Below, piece after piece: positions 1 to 7,200 of a stretch of DNA of 55,710 bases. Every line of letters starts with the position of its first letter. Within the stretch, counting starts at the first letter, position 1. The stretch is from Candidatus Peregrinibacteria bacterium CG_4_10_14_0_2_um_filter_38_24 (GTDB lineage Bacteria; Patescibacteriota; Gracilibacteria; UBA1369; LOWO2-01-FULL-3): positions 1-55,710 of the forward strand of contig PFOM01000012.1 in assembly GCA_002792535.1 (NCBI GenBank), given 5' to 3'. Made by a program: the position numbers and the translations under genes. Under the pieces are notes generated by a model. That model saw only the letters and a program-made list of their open reading frames with translations. It was not told the DNA's origin and searched no databases.

Positions 1-61
1 ATGAAATAGGCGATGAGATTAGCATACATTGAAGGTGTCCGCAACGAAAATTTCATACAAC
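1..61 (-). other. Start of a third gene cassette, cut by the window edge
   Basis: Read on the minus strand, this is the first 60 bases of the next cassette after attC1, starting with the R' box GTTGTAT. A possible promoter lies inside it (TTGCGG, 17 bases, TAATCT on the minus strand). No coding region can be judged because the rest lies beyond base 1. Confidence 0.5.
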
Positions 62-181
62 GTCCATGAATAACTGAAGTTTGGTGGCGGTACAATTTGC
101 GCGATAGCGCATACCGCCGCCAAATTTGGGAGAGCGAATGAAGCAAAGCGGAATGAGTGAACCAGTTATTCATTGTTAGCT
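55..181 (-). other. attC-type recombination site 1 (end of cassette B)
   Basis: On the minus strand the order is R'' AGCTAAC, then A, L'' ATGAATAACTG, an asymmetric arm, an inner stem (TTTGGYGGCGGTA paired with its complement), a small TGCGC-GATA-GCGCA tip, L' CAGTTATTCAT, spacer GGAC and R' GTTGTAT. L'' and L' pair perfectly over 11 bp. The single base between R'' and L'' opposite a four-base GGAC spacer between L' and R' gives the unpaired central spacer known from integron attC sites (compare TAAC-AA and GGC-GTTA in Vibrio VCRs). An extra stretch of about 30 bases on one side of the fold makes it asymmetric. It shares its plan and flanking words with the site at 1940-2061. Confidence 0.82.
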
Positions 182-237
182 GTTGTAATTAAATTCGCGA
201 GCGATAGCGAGCATTATTTGGGGCAATTCTTGTTTCA
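179..237 (+). repeat. Terminal inverted repeat of cassette B, distal arm
   Basis: Bases 213-237 are the exact reverse complement of 1880-1904 (25 bp), and 179-196 is a near-perfect complement of 1925-1943. The two matching blocks are separated by unrelated small hairpins in each arm. The arm begins exactly at the TGA stop codon of the cassette gene and ends in the R'' box of attC1, so the two ends of the cassette are complementary over about 60 bases. Confidence 0.85.
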
Positions 238-1821
238 GTAAACTTCTTGCAGATAACATTTTTCACAGTAGACTTTTTGCGCATCTTTTGCCGTGAATGG
301 TGTTGTTATTTCAATACTGCATTTGTCACATTGTTTTTTTACCAATTTGCGAGCAGGACGTAAAGCCAGTCTTTCTTTGTGCCGTTGATCTGGATGTCTT
401 TTGGGGATTGATAAATTCATGGACTTGTAAAACTCTTTTTCGGCATCAACGAGATTAAATGGTCGCCCTGTAATTTCGCAGATGATACTATTTGGTGGTA
501 TTTCCCCTTGGTATTTAGTTTCTTTTTCTGTATGCGGGAAATATTCATTGGCTACGGTATCTTCATATTTAAACGGACTCATTTCCAAGGGGAAATACTG
601 GCCCCATTCGCCGGTTTTTTGCATGTGTTCAATGATTTTGGCGACCATTTTTTCGTATTCTGGCTTTGCGTACTGCTTGTTTAAAATGCAGTACTGTCCG
701 TTTCGCAAATTTGAGCAGCCGAATACATTTTGGCATGAGTGGACATTATCAACGTAAAGCGCATTATTTGTGCTCCAAGCTCCGTTGGCAAAAAGAACAT
801 TGTATGATTTGTAACCCACACTCATGCCTTCATACGAAAGCTCCATTTCTGTTGTATGGCACACATCCATAATGTCTTTAACTTGATAGCCGGTATAAAC
901 AAAACGGCAATCTTCCCCGTATGCCAGATCAAAGCAGAGTTGTGCGTTTTTGCAGTTTGAAAGAAAGTTGCCCAAGCTGTTTTCACAGTTGGTCATGCTT
1001 AAACCTTTGTGAATGGTATTGAATTTAAGTTTTACAAACTGCTCACGGAGGCTATCAAGTTTCCCTTCAGAAAGCTGTTTGGCTATTTCCGCTTTCTTGG
1101 AAAGAAACTGCTCCTTTGAATAAGGTTGATTGAAAATATAATACTGTTTATTTCGTAAATTCGATGAGAACAGGCAGTTGGAGCAGTTTCGACAGTTGTA
1201 GAGAAACATGCTTTCATTGCAGTTTTTACAGTCTTGAGAGTATAAAAGCTGATAACAGCCCTGCACATCAACGACCTCGTAGCAATATTTTGATTCCAGA
1301 CAATTGAGTGTGTCCAAACAGCTTTCTGATTTAATAACTTGTGTGCCATACAAACAGTCTTCGTTGTATTCGGCTGCGAAAATAAGATGGCAATGCTTGT
1401 TATAGCCCGATAGGTTTATATATTCGGAGCTTTCGTTGTTTGTAACATGCAGTGACAAATGCGGTATTGACTGTTTGAGTTCAGCAAATTGCTCGAAGAA
1501 AGGGCGCTCGAAATCAAAGTCACGACCAAAATCTAACGGATTCCACTTATCACTCCACCATTCTTGAGGTGAATAAACTTTGTATGGTGAATCTTGTCTA
1601 TAAATTGAGATAATGTCTTTACTGCTCATGTCGCATTTACGGTGATAGAGTGCCCTTTCGTTGCGGAAAGATAAGCGTCTTTGCTGTCTGCAATCTGGAC
1701 ATAATGTTGGTTCTGGAACGGCAAAAGTTGCGCCTTCAATTTTTACTGAAAATTTTTGCAAGAAGTTTTTGTCATCTTCTGGAATTGTGAACTGATTTTG
1801 GCACTTTTCACATGTTTTCAT
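235..1821 (-). CDS. Cysteine-rich zinc-ribbon protein with internal repeats, cassette-borne
   Basis: Product of 528 residues with no recognised enzymatic domain. It opens with a CxxC pair (Cys4, Cys7), a second CxxC (CPDC) near residue 42, and closes with CDKC and CEKC pairs in the last 35 residues, consistent with zinc ribbons at both ends. The middle carries many paired cysteines in repeats such as NCRNCSNC followed by SNLRNKQYYIFNQPYSKE; a second copy of the unit (GCSNLRNGQYCILNKQYAKP) lies near residue 370. I recall similar uncharacterised proteins as frequent in CPR genomes. It is the sole gene of cassette B; its TGA stop coincides with the start of the cassette's terminal inverted repeat. 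No Shine-Dalgarno sequence is visible. Function unknown; structural zinc binding is an inference from the cysteines. Confidence 0.9.
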   Translation of the reverse strand: MKTCEKCQNQFTIPEDDKNFLQKFSVKIEGATFAVPEPTLCPDCRQQRRLSFRNERALYHRKCDMSSKDIISIYRQDSPYKVYSPQEWWSDKWNPLDFGRDFDFERPFFEQFAELKQSIPHLSLHVTNNESSEYINLSGYNKHCHLIFAAEYNEDCLYGTQVIKSESCLDTLNCLESKYCYEVVDVQGCYQLLYSQDCKNCNESMFLYNCRNCSNCLFSSNLRNKQYYIFNQPYSKEQFLSKKAEIAKQLSEGKLDSLREQFVKLKFNTIHKGLSMTNCENSLGNFLSNCKNAQLCFDLAYGEDCRFVYTGYQVKDIMDVCHTTEMELSYEGMSVGYKSYNVLFANGAWSTNNALYVDNVHSCQNVFGCSNLRNGQYCILNKQYAKPEYEKMVAKIIEHMQKTGEWGQYFPLEMSPFKYEDTVANEYFPHTEKETKYQGEIPPNSIICEITGRPFNLVDAEKEFYKSMNLSIPKRHPDQRHKERLALRPARKLVKKQCDKCSIEITTPFTAKDAQKVYCEKCYLQEVY

Positions 1822-1834
1822 ATTTGTAGTTTAG

Positions 1835-1873
1835 ACTTCCGCCGCAAACCCGCCTGCGTAAGCTGGCGGAAGT
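1835..1873. repeat. Hairpin in the leader of the cassette B gene
   Basis: A 9-bp perfect inverted repeat, ACTTCCGCC with GGCGGAAGT, contains a second nested pairing (CCGCC with GGCGG). It sits directly upstream of the 528-residue gene, so it would be in the 5' untranslated region. It is not followed by a T-run and is not a convincing terminator. Confidence 0.55.
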
Positions 1874-1879
1874 TTAGTT

Positions 1880-1945
1880 TGAAACAAGAATTGCCCCAAA
1901 TAATTTTTCGGCGACAGCCGAAAAGAATTTAATTATTTCAGCTAA
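1880..1945 (-). repeat. Terminal inverted repeat of cassette B, proximal arm
   Basis: Partner of the arm at 179-237: 25 bp (1880-1904) match perfectly and a further block next to the R box matches nearly so. Between them is a small hairpin (CGGCGACAGCCG) that has no counterpart in the other arm, where a different GC-rich tip occurs. Confidence 0.85.
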
Positions 1946-2061
1946 CGTCCATGACTATGCGACGTTTGCCAGTGGTAAAATACGCTGAAAGCGTACCACT
2001 GGCAAATGTGGGAGAATGACTGAGCGGAGCGAAGGAATGAACCTCATAGTCATTGTTGTGT
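1940..2061 (-). other. attC-type recombination site 2 (end of cassette A)
   Basis: Minus-strand order: R'' ACACAAC, A, L'' ATGACTATG, a one-sided extra arm, an inner 13-bp perfect stem (TTTGCCAGTGGTA at 1965-1977 with its complement at 1994-2006), a tip with ACGCT and AGCGT, L' CATAGTCAT, spacer GGAC, and R' GTTAGCT. R'' is complementary to the first seven bases of cassette A (plus strand 2422-2428) and R' is the first heptamer of cassette B. The GGAC spacer and the words GGGAGA...GAATGA on the long side are shared with attC1, while the stem sequences differ, as is usual for attC sites: structure is kept, sequence is not. Confidence 0.83.
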
Positions 2062-2087
2062 GATGAAGTCAGAAATTTCCTTCTTGA
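2055..2087 (+). repeat. Terminal inverted repeat of cassette A, distal arm
   Basis: GTTGTGTGA followed by AAGTCAGAAATTTC and CTTGA, with short interruptions, is the reverse complement of 2396-2428. It extends the pairing of the cassette ends about 25 bases past the R box. Confidence 0.82.
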
Positions 2088-2094
2088 GAATTGT

Positions 2095-2346
2095 TTATTG
2101 GTTTCTCTTTAGGGCTTCTGTAGCAAGTTTTGCTTCCCACTTAACAATGACTACTTTTCCGTAGGGTGTATCAATTTCCTTGGCATCTAATGGTCTTTGG
2201 CCATCAGAGTCGAGATTCAGGGAATCCTCAACTGTATCAGCTGGAGAGGTATTCCAATAAACAATTCTTCCATCTTCCTTATAGCGTTTACCGCCGTTTG
2301 GATAGGAATTAAGTATATCGTCCGAATTTGTGTCCAAGTTTTCCAT
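2095..2346 (-). CDS. Small hypothetical protein, gene of cassette A
   Basis: 83 residues, acidic in the middle, with no recognised domain, signal peptide or membrane segment. The N-terminal half contains a YPNGGKRYKEDGRIVYWN stretch that looks like a short beta-hairpin. The gene is adjacent to the predicted attI side of the array and has its own promoter at 2375-2403 (TTGACA, 17 bases, AATAAT), leaving a leader of roughly 20 bases. It occupies a 482-bp cassette that ends in attC2. Support for coding comes from its position in the cassette, the promoter and the clean ATG. Function unknown. Confidence 0.68.
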   Translation of the reverse strand: MENLDTNSDDILNSYPNGGKRYKEDGRIVYWNTSPADTVEDSLNLDSDGQRPLDAKEIDTPYGKVVIVKWEAKLATEALKRNQ

Positions 2347-2374
2347 AAATTTATAAGTTAATTGGCAAGAGTTG

Positions 2375-2403
2375 ATTATTGCCTAAATTCACCAATCTGT
2401 CAA
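2375..2403 (-). promoter_or_regulatory. Sigma70-type promoter at the head of the cassette array
   Basis: On the minus strand, a perfect -35 TTGACA (2398-2403) is followed after 17 bases by AATAAT (2375-2380). It lies inside cassette A, its -35 overlapping the terminal inverted repeat, and points into the array, so it could serve the downstream cassettes much as the Pc promoter does in classical integrons. Confidence 0.65.
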
Positions 2404-2428
2404 GAAATTTCTGACTTTTTCACACAAC
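2396..2428 (-). repeat. Terminal inverted repeat of cassette A, proximal arm
   Basis: Complement of 2055-2087, ending in the boundary heptamer ACACAAC (2422-2428). The -35 box of the array promoter falls within it. Confidence 0.8.
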
Positions 2429-2450
2429 TGGTTCTTATACGAACTTTTTA
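2422..2450. other. Predicted attI-like insertion site next to the recombinase
   Basis: The cassette boundary ACACAAC (2422-2428) is followed by the inverted pair GTTC-TTATAC-GAAC (2431-2444), two half sites around a 6-bp centre, as in dif/Xer-type core sites. It is the only boundary in the array that is not a long folded site, it lies between the first cassette and the recombinase gene, and this is where an integron's attI belongs. Assignment is by position and symmetry only. Confidence 0.5.
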
Positions 2451-2524: not shown

Positions 2525-3385
2525 ATGTTTAAAATACCTTTTAGAGGTTTGCAAATCGCAAAGTTTGATAGTATCGATTTTTGCGTGAGAGAAACAGAGC
2601 GGGAATTGAAATTGAGGAATTATAGTCCAAAAACCATCAAAAGTTACTTGTTGTACCTTAAAGATTATTTGTTTTTTGTGAAAAATAACAATAAAAAACC
2701 TGATATTGAAGCAATCAAAGATTTTCTTCTTGAGAAACATGACCTAAAATATTCTCCACAAACCGTAAATCTTGCTCTTAATTCTATAAAATTTTTCTAT
2801 AGAAATATTGCGGGAAATCCTTTTCCTGTACGGATAAAATGTTCTAAAAGATCTATGAAGTTGCCTGTCGTTATCTCAAAAAATAATATTTTAAAATTAA
2901 TAGACTCAATTCAAAATAAAAGACACAGGCTTCTTATCTCTCTTTCTTATGGAGCTGGATTTCGTGTTAGTGAAGCCATCAAACTCAAGATTAAAGATTT
3001 GAATTTTGAAGAAAATATCATTTATGTCCGTGAATCAAAAGGCGGCAAAAGCAGAATCACTATTTTGCCTGAGAAGTTAAAAACTGATCTTTCTGATTTT
3101 ATTTTGGGACGTGATTTTAATGATTATGTTTTCGTTAGCAATAGATGTGGACGGCTTACCACTCGCACTGCACAAAAAATCTTTAGCAATGCACTTTTAA
3201 AGACAGGCGTTTTCTGTGATGCGACTTTTCACAGTCTTCGCCATAGTTTTGCCACCCACCTGCTCGAAAACGGCACCGATATCCGCTATATACAAACTCT
3301 TTTGGGGCATCAAAACATACGCACCACGCAGAGATATACTCAGGTTTCTGTGTCGAGTATTCAAAATATTAAAAGTCCGCTTTGA
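2525..3385 (+). CDS. Tyrosine recombinase, Xer-like, at the integrase position of the cassette array
   Basis: 286 residues with an N-terminal core-binding domain (about 20-108) and a complete catalytic domain (about 112-286). The catalytic set is visible: Arg147 (GFRVSE), Lys172/175 (SKGGKSR), His236 and Arg239 (HSLRH), His262 (LLGH) and the nucleophile Tyr271 (TQRYTQ). The C-terminal IKSPL resembles the end of IntI. Between the beta-hairpin lysine and HxxR it is short and lacks the roughly 20-40-residue stretch that marks IntI integrases, so by sequence it is closer to XerC/D and archaeal XerA-like enzymes. It is divergent from the cassettes and convergent with higA, whose stop is 3 bases away. 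It would cut and join the attC and attI-like sites to its left; that substrate link is inferred from adjacency. Confidence 0.9.
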   Translation: MFKIPFRGLQIAKFDSIDFCVRETERELKLRNYSPKTIKSYLLYLKDYLFFVKNNNKKPDIEAIKDFLLEKHDLKYSPQTVNLALNSIKFFYRNIAGNPFPVRIKCSKRSMKLPVVISKNNILKLIDSIQNKRHRLLISLSYGAGFRVSEAIKLKIKDLNFEENIIYVRESKGGKSRITILPEKLKTDLSDFILGRDFNDYVFVSNRCGRLTTRTAQKIFSNALLKTGVFCDATFHSLRHSFATHLLENGTDIRYIQTLLGHQNIRTTQRYTQVSVSSIQNIKSPL

Positions 3386-3388
3386 ATA

Positions 3389-3703
3389 CTAAGCTAAAAC
3401 TAACCTTGAAGTGTCCAATGGTTTTATTTCAAAATTCAGCTTTTTTGATAATTTTTCTGATTCGATCTCGAGGTTATAATGAGATTGAAGGTTTAGCCAA
3501 AATTGTGCCGAAGTTGTAAAATATTTACTAAAGCGAAGTGCCGTATCAGCAGAGATAACCCTTTCTCCGTGCACTATTTCATTTATTCTTCTCGCCGAAA
3601 CTCCGATGTCTTTTGCAATTTTGTATTGAGAAAGACCGAAAGGTTTCATGAATTCTTCCATTAGAATTTCTCCGGGAGTAATTGGTGATATTTTTTTAGT
3701 CAT
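3389..3703 (-). CDS. higA: HigA-type antitoxin, XRE-family DNA-binding protein
   Basis: 104 residues, a typical HigA length. The opening TPGEILMEEFMKPFGLSQYKIAKDIG is the HigA signature followed by a helix-turn-helix (about 22-45), and HGERVISADTALRFSKYF continues the fold. It binds and neutralises the adjacent HigB ribonuclease and represses the shared promoter. It is the second gene of the pair, starting 3 bases after the higB stop; toxin-first order is normal for higBA. I placed the start at the ATG next to the higB stop. Confidence 0.92.
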   Translation of the reverse strand: MTKKISPITPGEILMEEFMKPFGLSQYKIAKDIGVSARRINEIVHGERVISADTALRFSKYFTTSAQFWLNLQSHYNLEIESEKLSKKLNFEIKPLDTSRLVLA

Positions 3704-3706
3704 TGT

Positions 3707-3991
3707 TTATTTGTGATAATTTGTTATTTCTACTTCATGTGCTTCTCCGTTTTTCCACTCGAAGCAAATTCTCCATTTGTCATTTATTCTTACACTATAT
3801 TGGCCTTTCCTGTCCCCTTTCAACTGTTCCAGATGATTTGACGGCGGGATACGTAGGTCATTTATCGACATAGCCGCATCTATCATCCATACCTTTCTCA
3901 TTGAGATCCTTTGAATTTCCGGAGGTAGTTTTCGAGACATTTCTCTGTTGAATATTTTCTCCGCCTCCTTGTCTTTGAAACTCTTAATCAT
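3707..3991 (-). CDS. higB: HigB-type toxin, RelE-superfamily mRNA interferase
   Basis: 94 residues: IKSFKDKEAEKIFNRE at the start, DLRIPPSNHLEQLKGDRKG in the middle and YSVRINDKWRICFEW toward the end are the HigB/RelE hallmarks. The family cleaves mRNA on the ribosome. First gene of the higBA operon, with operator repeats directly before its ATG. It is intact, unlike the RelE gene at 6906. Confidence 0.92.
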   Translation of the reverse strand: MIKSFKDKEAEKIFNREMSRKLPPEIQRISMRKVWMIDAAMSINDLRIPPSNHLEQLKGDRKGQYSVRINDKWRICFEWKNGEAHEVEITNYHK

Positions 3992-4188: not shown

Positions 4189-5214
4189 ATGGGAAACATT
4201 AAAGATTACAAAATAGCGACACTTGGAAGCCACACCGCTTTGCAAATCTTAAAAGGCGCAAAAGATGAAGGATTTGAGACAATATGTATTTGTGAAAAAG
4301 GCAAAGGAAAACCTTATCAAAGCTACGAAGTCGCGGATCAGATTATCATGGTTGATTCGTTTAAGGACTATTTTACTATTGAAGATCAGCTGATAAAGCA
4401 AAATGCAATTATCGTTCCCCATGGGTCTTTTGTGGCTTATATCGGCCCTAGCAAAATGATGGAGGTCAAGGCTATGCATTATGGAACAAAAGCTATTTTG
4501 GAATGGGAATCGGACAGGATGAAAGAGAGGCAATGGCTTCTTAGTGCCAATATAAAACTTCCAAAAGTTTTCAAAACACCTGAAGAAATAGACTGCCCTG
4601 TCATCGTAAAATTTCATGGAGCACATGGAGGAAAGGGATATTTTATTGCAAATTCTGCAAAAGAATTTTATGAAAGATATGAGGTTTACAAAGGCAAAGA
4701 AGGTCATGACAAATATGCAATACAAGAATACGTGGTCGGAGTTCCTGTATATACACACTATTTTTATAGCCCCCTTACAGGCGAACTTGAGGTAATGGGA
4801 TTTGATAAAAGATACGAGTCAAATGCCGATTCTATCGGGCGAATTGCGGCAAAAGATCAGGTTGATGTAGACATCCGTACGACTTATACAATCACCGGAA
4901 ATGTACCTTTGGTGGTCAGAGAATCGCTTTTACCTGAGATTTTCGAGATGGGACAACGTGTAGTCGAGGCTTCGAAAAAATTGGTTAAAGGAGGGCTTTT
5001 CGGGCCGTTCTGTCTTGAAGGTATCATCGATCCTGAACTTAATTATTCAGTTTTTGAAATTTCAGCAAGAATTGTAGCCGGTACAAATCCGTACATCAAC
5101 GGGTCTCCTTACACTTGGCTAAAATATAATGAACCAATGAGCACTGGACGTAGACTGGCAAGAGATATTAAAATGGCGATAGAGCAAGACAGGCTTTCGG
5201 AGGTTCTTGGATAA
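4189..5214 (+). CDS. purP: PurP, formate-dependent FAICAR synthetase (copy 1)
   Basis: 341 residues, matching archaeal PurP (5-formaminoimidazole-4-carboxamide ribonucleotide synthetase), an ATP-grasp enzyme that formylates AICAR with formate and ATP. Visible features are the N-terminal substrate motif LGSHTALQ (12-19), the IIVPHGSFVAYIG stretch, the ATP-grasp glycine-rich segment FHGAHGGKGYF (about 140-150), GVPVYTHYFYSPLTGELE and the C-terminal FEISARIVAGTNPY. In most bacteria this step is done by PurH with formyl-tetrahydrofolate. A second, more divergent paralogue follows after 33 bases, presumably in one operon. The start is the only ATG before the conserved N-terminus; no Shine-Dalgarno is present. 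Confidence 0.93.
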   Translation: MGNIKDYKIATLGSHTALQILKGAKDEGFETICICEKGKGKPYQSYEVADQIIMVDSFKDYFTIEDQLIKQNAIIVPHGSFVAYIGPSKMMEVKAMHYGTKAILEWESDRMKERQWLLSANIKLPKVFKTPEEIDCPVIVKFHGAHGGKGYFIANSAKEFYERYEVYKGKEGHDKYAIQEYVVGVPVYTHYFYSPLTGELEVMGFDKRYESNADSIGRIAAKDQVDVDIRTTYTITGNVPLVVRESLLPEIFEMGQRVVEASKKLVKGGLFGPFCLEGIIDPELNYSVFEISARIVAGTNPYINGSPYTWLKYNEPMSTGRRLARDIKMAIEQDRLSEVLG

Positions 5215-5247
5215 GAAAGCTGAAATTATATTTTAATTTTTACAGCA

Positions 5248-6435
5248 ATGATCGGACAAAAAGATATTTTGGAAATTTTGAAATCTTATGATCTTAAAAA
5301 TATAACAATCGGTGTTCTTGGCGGACACAGCGCACTTGATGTTTGCTCTGGCGCGAAAAAACATGGATTTAAAACTGTTGCAGTTTGCCAAAACGGCAGA
5401 GACAAGACATATTCTAAGTATTACAAAACTCGTGACGGGAAGGGTTGTATAGACGAAATTATTTTAGTCGATAAATTTTCAGATATTATAAATGAAGATG
5501 TTCAGGAAAAGTTGAGGGCTATTAATACGATTTTCATACATAATAGATATTTTTGGGTTTATTTTAAGGATTTCAAAGACTTTGAAAACAAGTTTAAAGT
5601 GCCGGTCTTTGGGCTTAGGGAAGGCGTAAAACTTGAAGAGAGAGATCAGCCGAAAAATCAATATTATCTTCTTGAAAAAGCTGGGATAAGAATGCCGAAA
5701 ATCATAAGAAAAGGTGGTGAAAAATTGAGTTATGATGAGACAAAAAAATTGTTGGACGCACACTTTGTTACTGAAAAAGGTGGACCATTGATTGTAAAAG
5801 TGAATGAGGCAATAAGGGGATATGAAAGAGCTTTTTTCGTAGTTACAAATACTGATTCTTATTTTACCGTTAGTGAAAAAATGATAAATGAAGGAAAAAT
5901 AAATAAATCAGATTTGGATAATTCCGTAATCGAGGAATTCATCATTGGTGCACAAATAAATTTCAATTTCTTCTATTCCACTCTTACCGGTGAGATTGAA
6001 ATCATGGGAACTGACCTACGCCGACAGACTTCTTTGGATGGATTCTTGAGATTAAATGCAGATACACAGATGGAACTTTTGAAGGATGGATATGCGCCTT
6101 CGATGATCGAAACAGGACACGTGGCCTGTACGACAAAAGAATCAATTCTCGAAAAAGCTTTTGAGGCAGGAGAAAAATTTGTGGCAACTTTGAAAGAAGA
6201 GGTCGCTCCCGGAATCATCGGCGCTTTTGCCCTACAGGGAGCCATTGCGGCGTACGAAGGAAAGGAAGAATTTGTAGTTTTTGATGTTTCAATGAGAATT
6301 CCCGGATCACCGGGGACGAGATTTACGCCTTGTACAACCTATCTTTATGGCGAGAGCGTGAGTTATGGCGATAGAATCGCAATGGAGGTGAAAGAAGCGG
6401 TGAAACAAGGGAAGTTGGGGGAGATTTTGACTTAA
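5248..6435 (+). CDS. PurP-family ATP-grasp enzyme (copy 2, divergent paralogue)
   Basis: 395 residues, clearly homologous to the gene before it: LGGHSALD (24-31) corresponds to LGSHTALQ, INFNFFYSTLTGEIEIMG to the YSPLTGELEVMG segment, and the end contains FDVSMRIPGSPGTRF in place of SARIVAGTNPY. It is about 50 residues longer, with extra sequence around 50-130 and in the middle. Archaea also often carry two PurP paralogues, where the second copy's role is uncertain; it may be a partner subunit or a related ligase. Downstream there is an AT-rich gap before the RelB gene. Confidence 0.87.
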   Translation: MIGQKDILEILKSYDLKNITIGVLGGHSALDVCSGAKKHGFKTVAVCQNGRDKTYSKYYKTRDGKGCIDEIILVDKFSDIINEDVQEKLRAINTIFIHNRYFWVYFKDFKDFENKFKVPVFGLREGVKLEERDQPKNQYYLLEKAGIRMPKIIRKGGEKLSYDETKKLLDAHFVTEKGGPLIVKVNEAIRGYERAFFVVTNTDSYFTVSEKMINEGKINKSDLDNSVIEEFIIGAQINFNFFYSTLTGEIEIMGTDLRRQTSLDGFLRLNADTQMELLKDGYAPSMIETGHVACTTKESILEKAFEAGEKFVATLKEEVAPGIIGAFALQGAIAAYEGKEEFVVFDVSMRIPGSPGTRFTPCTTYLYGESVSYGDRIAMEVKEAVKQGKLGEILT

Positions 6436-6564
6436 GGAATTTTTTCTCTTGCCGATCTATGCAAGTTATTATTTCCTAGTAAAGATTTTAGTTTTTTTTA
6501 ATAAAAATTTAATGTCGATGTGTTAGTGTGCATTTGATCTTTGATTGTTTGCATCCTTAATACG

Positions 6565-6593
6565 TTGACAATGTCAGTACAAAGTAATTACAA
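6565..6593 (+). promoter_or_regulatory. Promoter and operator of the RelB/RelE module
   Basis: A perfect -35 TTGACA (6565-6570) and TTACAA (6588-6593) are separated by 17 bases. The -35 overlaps a perfect palindrome, TGACA-A-TGTCA (6566-6576), a likely RelB binding site. This promoter lies downstream of the earlier in-frame start codons, which supports the start at 6619. Confidence 0.6.
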
Positions 6594-6618
6594 CGATAGT
6601 GTTCTTAACCAATATAAT

Positions 6619-6909
6619 ATGAGCACTATTCAAGTTCGGATTGATGAAAAAATGAAGAAACAATCTCAAAAAATCCTTGAGGAAATAGGGATGGATTTGA
6701 GCGGAGCTATTAAAATTTATCTTAAGCAAATAATTATAAAAGAAGGCTTGCCTTTCAAGGTTTTGACCGAAAATGGGTTTACAAAGGAATTCGAAAAAGA
6801 AACTTTAGAGGCATACAAAATGGCTAAAAATAAAAAAGATTTGGTAGGACCTTTTGAAGGGAACAAGGCAGTAGATTACTTAAAAGATTTGATTAAAAAG
6901 AAAAAATGA
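6619..6909 (+). CDS. relB: RelB/DinJ-family antitoxin
   Basis: 96 residues from the chosen start. MSTIQVRIDEKMKKQSQKIL followed by GMDLSGAIKIYLKQIIIKEGLPF is the ribbon-helix-helix DNA-binding domain of the RelB/DinJ family, with a charged C-terminal toxin-binding tail. In-frame upstream starts (TTG 6541, ATG 6571) lie on or before the promoter and are less likely. It overlaps the toxin gene by ATGA at 6906-6909, so the two were translationally coupled. Confidence 0.88.
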   Translation: MSTIQVRIDEKMKKQSQKILEEIGMDLSGAIKIYLKQIIIKEGLPFKVLTENGFTKEFEKETLEAYKMAKNKKDLVGPFEGNKAVDYLKDLIKKKK

Positions 6910-7200
6910 AGATTTTTTACAGTAAAAAGTTTGTGAAATCTTTTAGGAAGCTTCCTCTAAAACTTCAAGTGAAAGTGTCTGAAAAAAATAAAATTGTTTA
7001 TTCTAAATAGATTCGATAAGACATTGAATAATCATTTACTGAAAGGTAAGTTTACTGATTTAAGGTCGATATCTGTAACCGGAGATTTGAGGATAATTTT
7101 TAAAGAGGAAAAAGGCTATACAATCGTTATAATGCTTAATATCGGAAGCCTACTAGTTTACCATCTAAAACCTTTCAAAACTCCCCTTTTCGCTGTATAA
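6906..7200 (+). pseudogene. RelE/YafQ-type toxin broken by a one-base frameshift
   Basis: The first 34 codons read MKIFYSKKFVKSFRKLPLKL... and end at a TAG (7008-7010). The +1 frame carries the rest: LFILNRFDKTLNNHLLKG, LRSISVTGDLRIIF and the end VYHLKPF. Removing one A from the A7 run at 6982-6988 restores one continuous RelE/YafQ protein of about 97 residues across the junction (...VSEKIKLFILNRFD...). Either the gene is inactivated while its antitoxin survives, or the run is a sequencing or assembly error. A switchable homopolymer is a third possibility. Confidence 0.88.

Follow-up and report, generated by a model that had tools for sequence, protein, structure and literature searches.

We consider it likely that the window analyzed here, a stretch of 55,710 nucleotides from Candidatus Peregrinibacteria bacterium CG_4_10_14_0_2_um_filter_38_24, holds a genuine and probably working integron platform, whose own integrase would be the recombinase encoded at 2525-3385, a member of a family without the I2 domain. 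What can be read from the DNA itself comprises the layout of the platform, its G|TT boundaries, an attI-like site, an attC fold with covariation, an asymmetry between the two strands, the lack of I2 and of canonical extrahelical bases (EHBs), and the recurrence of the arrangement across phyla. From these features it seems probable that the 2525-3385 enzyme makes the exchange, and fairly probable that it acts on folded single strands. IntI1 reportedly needs I2 to capture cassettes (Messier and Roy 2001, cited in PMC7790495), and deletion of the EHBs blocks attC x attC recombination by IntI1 and VchIntIA, while attI x attC recombination by IntI1 falls only about 6-fold (PMC2727003), so that activity without both would be unexpected for an IntI.

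Layout of the integron platform

The recombinase gene adjoins a cassette array and is divergent from it. Along the minus strand, leading away from the recombinase, follow an attI-like site, cassette 1, its attC, cassette 2, a second attC, and the contig end (Table 1), and the cassette genes run outward from the integrase, the usual orientation in integrons. In one of its two alternatives, the earlier note had spoken of a CALIN-type array, a label that does not fit, since a recombinase that is divergent from the array and adjoins an attI-like site has the layout of a complete integron. The attI-like motif, CGYATA-N4..9-GTTR, occurs upstream of 18 of 62 I2-less relatives, whereas shuffles gave 0.36 and the downstream sides none (0 of 70), and it is this conservation, together with the cassette boundary, that points to a putative attI beside the integrase gene.

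Table 1. Features of the integron platform in the window
Feature	Position	Strand	Description
I2-less integron-type tyrosine recombinase	2525..3385	+	286 aa, complete ORF
attI-like site AAAAAGTTCGTATAAGAACCAG|TTGTGTGA	2428..2450	-	Crossover between 2428 and 2427; motif upstream of relatives; cassette 1 begins here
Gene cassette 1, 482 bp	1946..2427	-	ORF 2095-2346, 83 aa, no family
attC of cassette 1	1939..2062	-	R'' CACACAAC, L stem ATGACTATG/CATAGTCAT, R' CGTTAGCTG; found by scans and covariance model
Gene cassette 2, 1885 bp	61..1945	-	ORF 235-1821, 528 aa, Cys-rich, no confident family
attC of cassette 2	54..182	-	Uninterrupted 11-bp L stem ATGAATAACTG/CAGTTATTCAT
Third cassette, start only	1..60	-	Cut by contig end; contig C15 begins at window position 1

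The attC sites of the array have the R''-L''-L'-R' fold, and the covariance model R1 scored 60.7 bits (E 7.9e-11) on the site of cassette 1 and 59.9 bits on that of cassette 2, the latter value not being independent as this site is one of the 18 used to build R1. Both cassettes start at G|TT. By direct reading, cassette 1 begins with GTTGTGTG (G|TTGTGTG) and cassette 2 with GTTAGCTG (G|TTAGCTG), and each start is complementary in 8 of 8 positions to the cassette's own R'' (CACACAAC and CAGCTAAC, respectively). Across 24 neighboring attC pairs from relatives and contig C43, a cassette start and its own R'' were complementary in 6.9 of 8 positions on average, against 4.1 for shuffled partners (0/2000). 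Such complementarity is expected only if a cassette circularizes via its own R' and R''.

Five more attC sites of the window type lie on other contigs of the genome, including C31, C43, C10, and C28. Several of these are at or near contig ends, where the assembly breaks at the array, so that the window probably shows only part of the array. On contig C43 (L281), the cassettes carry a restriction-modification-like gene (881 aa), a 706-aa gene, and a 357-aa gene, while contig C10 (L283) holds a relative of the 528-aa gene of cassette 2, whose own product gives a weak zf_Tbcl_2 match under the cut-off. We also observed in several genomes (e.g., at L281, L010, and L036) a recurrent hairpin, AGAGGGG..GTTTTCTCCGC..CGAAAAC, just past the attC/attI crossover, although its reading as a conserved cassette leader is only partly supported. 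Rfam reported only tRNAs in the window and no match in the array loci.

On the integrase side, HigA-like antitoxin and HigB-like toxin genes (3389-3991, minus strand) lie directly downstream of the recombinase; beyond them are two PurP-like genes (4189-6435) and a second toxin-antitoxin-like pair (6541-7200), whose second frame is apparently frameshifted into two overlapping short frames. A PurH-like gene lies on contig C31 (G000:C31, L282:2014-3552), the first bases of which hold an attC of the window type. The integron may thus interrupt a purine locus.

A recombinase without the I2 segment and the search for a canonical integrase

The earlier note had read the recombinase as catalytically intact and as lacking the IntI-specific insertion, and both readings were borne out. 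The residues R147, K172/K175, H236-x-x-R239, H262, and Y271 are each present where it had placed them and vary little or not at all across 45 relatives. Between residues 186 and 237, that is, between patch II and HxxR, the protein has 52 residues, compared with 93 to 95 in seven canonical IntI and 54 to 60 in XerA, XerC, and XerD of the same alignment, which makes it about 42 residues shorter than IntI across the I2 region. Its match to the integron integrase model TIGR02249 (integrase_gron) reaches 197.7 bits, below the cut-off of 265, and falls into two pieces that skip profile positions ~178-236. By contrast, it scores barely above the cut-off of 220 (220.7 bits) with the XerA model NF040815, the own name of which also covers “integron integrase”; the score with PF00589 (Pfam) is 142 bits. 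The earlier note had also proposed structural modeling of the loop region. In the AlphaFold model (mean pLDDT 88), residues 193-213 are predicted to be without a helix, and the best PDB match of the model is VchIntIA (2a3v, TM 0.77), ahead of XerA.

An array of this kind could also be mobilized in trans by a canonical IntI encoded at another place in the genome, supplied by a partner cell, or present in earlier hosts, with the adjacent recombinase as a bystander. This would agree with the finding that IntI1 recombined eight of nine archaeal attC sites tested (PMC9668308) and with the absence of the recombinase from some attC-bearing genomes. However, none of the four PF00589 proteins in this 98.5% complete genome matches the I2 part of TIGR02249, no protein above the cut-off of this model was found in any of 380 sampled genomes of the phylum, and none of 22 genomes of other groups holding relatives contains a canonical IntI above the cut-off. 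Mobilization in trans is also at odds with the consistent divergent adjacency, the conserved attI-like site, and attC sites without EHBs, and we regard it as very unlikely. The suggestion of the earlier note that the true integrase lies elsewhere, leaving a CALIN beside this gene, fails on these searches and on the recurrence of divergent attC arrays beside the enzyme family in many genomes.

At first glance, the protein of locus L094, which has the best TIGR02249 score of the phylum over the full length of the model, resembles a canonical IntI in Patescibacteria. Under closer inspection, its insert of 30-odd residues lacks an I2 motif and lies in a loop that is variable among its Magasanikbacteria relatives. 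Within that branch (L047, L062, L069, and L094), the same loop carries inserts of differing length and unrelated sequence that are not I2-like.

attC sites without canonical extrahelical bases

Canonical attC sites carry two or three EHBs on the R''-L'' arm, which are held by I2 (PMC2727003, PMC7790495). With a bulge-tolerant scanner, canonical-IntI loci gave 22 U, 1 MU, and 1 V among the 24 sites of a first set and 33 U, 6 MU, 3 UV, and 4 others among the 46 sites of a second, so that 65 of 70 sites have an R''-L'' bulge and none has an uninterrupted stem. Loci with I2-less enzymes instead gave 37 uninterrupted sites, 10 V, 8 nominal U, 5 UV, and 5 others, and the control compartments 0 to 1 uninterrupted sites. 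The contrast of U against uninterrupted sites between the two kinds of loci is large (Fisher p 8e-22); the sites are nonindependent and essentially two clades are compared, so that this value speaks to the size of the difference and not to repeated coevolution. The L stem in I2-less loci is mostly an uninterrupted 9 to 12 bp, and the two or three EHBs of canonical sites are mostly absent from the R''-L'' arm. The nominal U bulges at L036, L044, and L054 were rejected, as they largely arise from the register of a CGATATC palindrome adjoining the spacer.

The alignment of type A sites reads R''-A-[L'' 11 nt]-hairpin 1-CC-hairpin 2-[L']-spacer-R'. Pairing holds in 97.9% of its cells, and 12 pairs show double changes, far above shuffles and slides, with the reservation that the 18 sites had been preselected for a paired stem and that the count therefore leans towards structure. 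Where the top strand has a conserved A.C mismatch, the bottom strand has a G.T wobble. With I2-less enzymes, it is the bottom strand that folds more stably at 44 of 46 sites (30 of 30 genomes), compared with 16 of 28 canonical sites. A search of 37 canonical-IntI loci with model R1 gave no match. The model recovered sites at loci that the scanner had missed and gave a single match in a Treponema genome, at L073:427-601, where a type-A-like attC (30.1 bits) lies upstream of an I2-less recombinase. In a second attC type, found in Absconditabacteria/Gracilibacteria-like genomes (L027, L038, and L046), the L'-R' arm is interrupted by one bulge after 5 to 6 bp, e.g., CGCACTATCC/GGA[C]TAGTGCG. With the bulge on the other arm, this type indicates that recognition is not uniform.

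Given that I2 and EHBs are both absent, that the loop has Xer-like length, and that attI and the L'-R' side of attC have a CGYATA-like motif in common, one might suppose that attC is recombined as ordinary double-stranded DNA in the manner of Xer, its L'-R' half (CNNATA..AACGTT) serving as an attI-like simple core and the palindrome being of little import. We think this improbable: the complementarity of the R''-L'' arm is kept through many double changes, R'' has likewise remained complementary to the start of its cassette, and the bottom strand is the better folder in all 30 genomes compared, none of which a duplex-only site would need.

If the enzyme instead acts on folded strands, as we favor, the reaction might proceed as follows. 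The enzyme would bind attI as a duplex (TTCGYATAA..AAC) and attC as its folded bottom strand, with the uninterrupted L stem and the R box mimicking an ordinary Xer-type duplex arm. It would then cut the R box, which reads G|TT in the top strand, and carry out one strand exchange, and the junction would be resolved by replication. Strand choice, which in canonical IntI depends on I2 and the extrahelical bases, would here come from foldability (the mismatch on the top and the wobble on the bottom strand), possibly aided by the unpaired GG at the three-way junction and the asymmetric central spacer.

Relatives, history, and comparison with known systems

I2-less relatives of the window enzyme were found in Peregrini-, Magasanik-, Gracili-, Abscondita-, Falkow-, and Kerfeldbacteria, Woese- and Nanoarchaeota, spirochaetes, and others. 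Among the best 80 matches, an I2-like segment is absent from all that are readable in frame; those of L062, L069, and L094 have longer loops. On the minus strand upstream of these recombinases, attC-like sites occur at 1.47 per 10 kb, compared with 0.07 to 0.10 in three control compartments, in a scan whose ungapped stem is biased against extrahelical bases; the later scans were bulge-tolerant and had canonical positive controls. When 79 genomes of the class were surveyed, recombinase and attC occurred together in 20, the recombinase alone in 6, attC alone in 12, and neither in 41 (Fisher p 6e-6). Where recombinase and attC share a contig, the divergent layout is repeated (G155:C6, G217:C8, G243:C3, G408:C18, and G450:C6 among the examples), and I2-less relatives placed divergently beside attC arrays are spread over Patescibacteria and DPANN archaea. 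Against our preferred explanation it also counts that 12 of 32 attC-bearing genomes have no close recombinase and 6 of 26 recombinase-bearing genomes no attC, and that the joint absence of I2 and EHBs amounts to essentially one evolutionary contrast.

We placed the enzyme in a tree rooted on XerC/XerD with 29 diverse IntI, from a sample without archaeal and spirochaete IntI and with the I2 columns below the fill filter. IntI with I2 form one clade (100/100) that is sister to the I2-less rows (86/89), and the joint clade has a support of 99/92, after 99/93 in an earlier tree. XerA, XerC, XerD, and the genome's own XerC/D-like protein fall outside it, so that the window recombinase groups neither within IntI nor with the Xer references. 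The idea of the earlier note that a Xer-like enzyme had independently taken up folded substrates thus survives in part: an enzyme without the insertion acting on folded attC has become better supported, but “Xer-like” and “independently” have not, since the clade is sister to IntI.

Nested in the I2-less group is a plasmid/spirochaete group that is almost without attC. Since related I2-less recombinases without attC occur on plasmids, in one case next to an IS91 transposase, the window enzyme could in principle be a phage, transposon, or IS91-associated XerA-like recombinase that came to lie beside a CALIN by chance. These plasmid/IS91-neighbor and spirochaete recombinases, the nearest relatives without attC, form a branch separate from the attC-associated rows of the window (97/89, 98/93); no relative was found on viral contigs, no transposase adjoins the 2525-3385 gene, and adjacency to attC is recurrent. 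A chance neighborhood is hence largely refuted and extremely improbable, and the phage or transposon clade always found without attC, which the earlier note had named as a possible placement, is not where the protein falls.

The tree is read most economically as a single gain of I2 on the IntI stem, which we favor without regarding it as proven: all Xer outgroups lack I2, and a loss would need two steps. Whether the lack of I2 is ancestral appears about evenly balanced, and the tree does not date attC use with certainty. It is tempting to speculate that Patescibacteria, DPANN archaea, and perhaps some spirochaetes hold an integron lineage that split from IntI before I2, such that folding and exchange first arose with a Xer-like enzyme and EHB-free sites and I2 and EHBs came later in the IntI branch, a history that may equally be right or wrong. 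Alternatively, the enzyme may descend from a normal IntI that lost I2 secondarily, the attC sites losing their EHBs afterwards, which would be compatible with the function we propose. The sister position leaves the direction open if the common ancestor had I2, and the archaeal and spirochaete IntI are outside the sample, but the 29 IntI form one clade with the I2-less rows outside, and together with the economy of a single gain this renders secondary loss unlikely.

I2 is treated as the innovation that enabled single-strand cassette capture, and the lack of intermediates has been described as an obstacle to reconstructing the origin of IntI (Escudero 2020, PMC7790495). A natural, attC-associated family without I2, with matching EHB-free sites, provides test material for this origin, and the integron of a tiny-genome bacterium may show the state before the I2 segment was added. 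The surveys and pipelines consulted use the I2 domain to recognize IntI (PMC9668308, PMC2426708) and would list an integron without it as a CALIN, from which it follows that counts of integron activity in Patescibacteria and archaea are too low. In the literature searched, which was limited in coverage, we found no report of integrons in Patescibacteria, Parcubacteria, or Peregrinibacteria, or of integrases without the domain.

Archaeal integrons (Ghaly 2022, PMC9668308) likewise comprise attC arrays, in DPANN and other archaea, most of them called CALIN. The IntI reported there, unlike the window enzyme, all have the IntI-specific domain, which was a requirement of the search and would have let enzymes without I2 go unnoticed. 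The archaeal Xer enzyme XerA (NF040815, PDB 4a8e, 5hxy) resembles the window recombinase in loop length and gives its best family score, just above the cut-off, whereas it falls outside the IntI and I2-less clade and the window gene adjoins an attC array. Plasmid and IS91-neighbor site-specific recombinases are I2-less and belong to the same wider clade, yet no attC lies upstream of them in the five loci read. Compared with the chromosomal (sedentary) integron of the Vibrio superintegron/VchIntIA type, the integron of the window lacks I2 and the R''-L'' extrahelical bases, its attC spacer is 1/3-4 instead of mostly 3/3, and its covariance model matches none of the canonical-IntI loci searched. 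The two nevertheless have in common a divergent integrase, an attI-like site, attC-bounded cassettes at G|TT, the R''-L''-L'-R' fold, the catalytic residues, and, as the closest solved structure of the modeled enzyme, the fold of VchIntIA itself.
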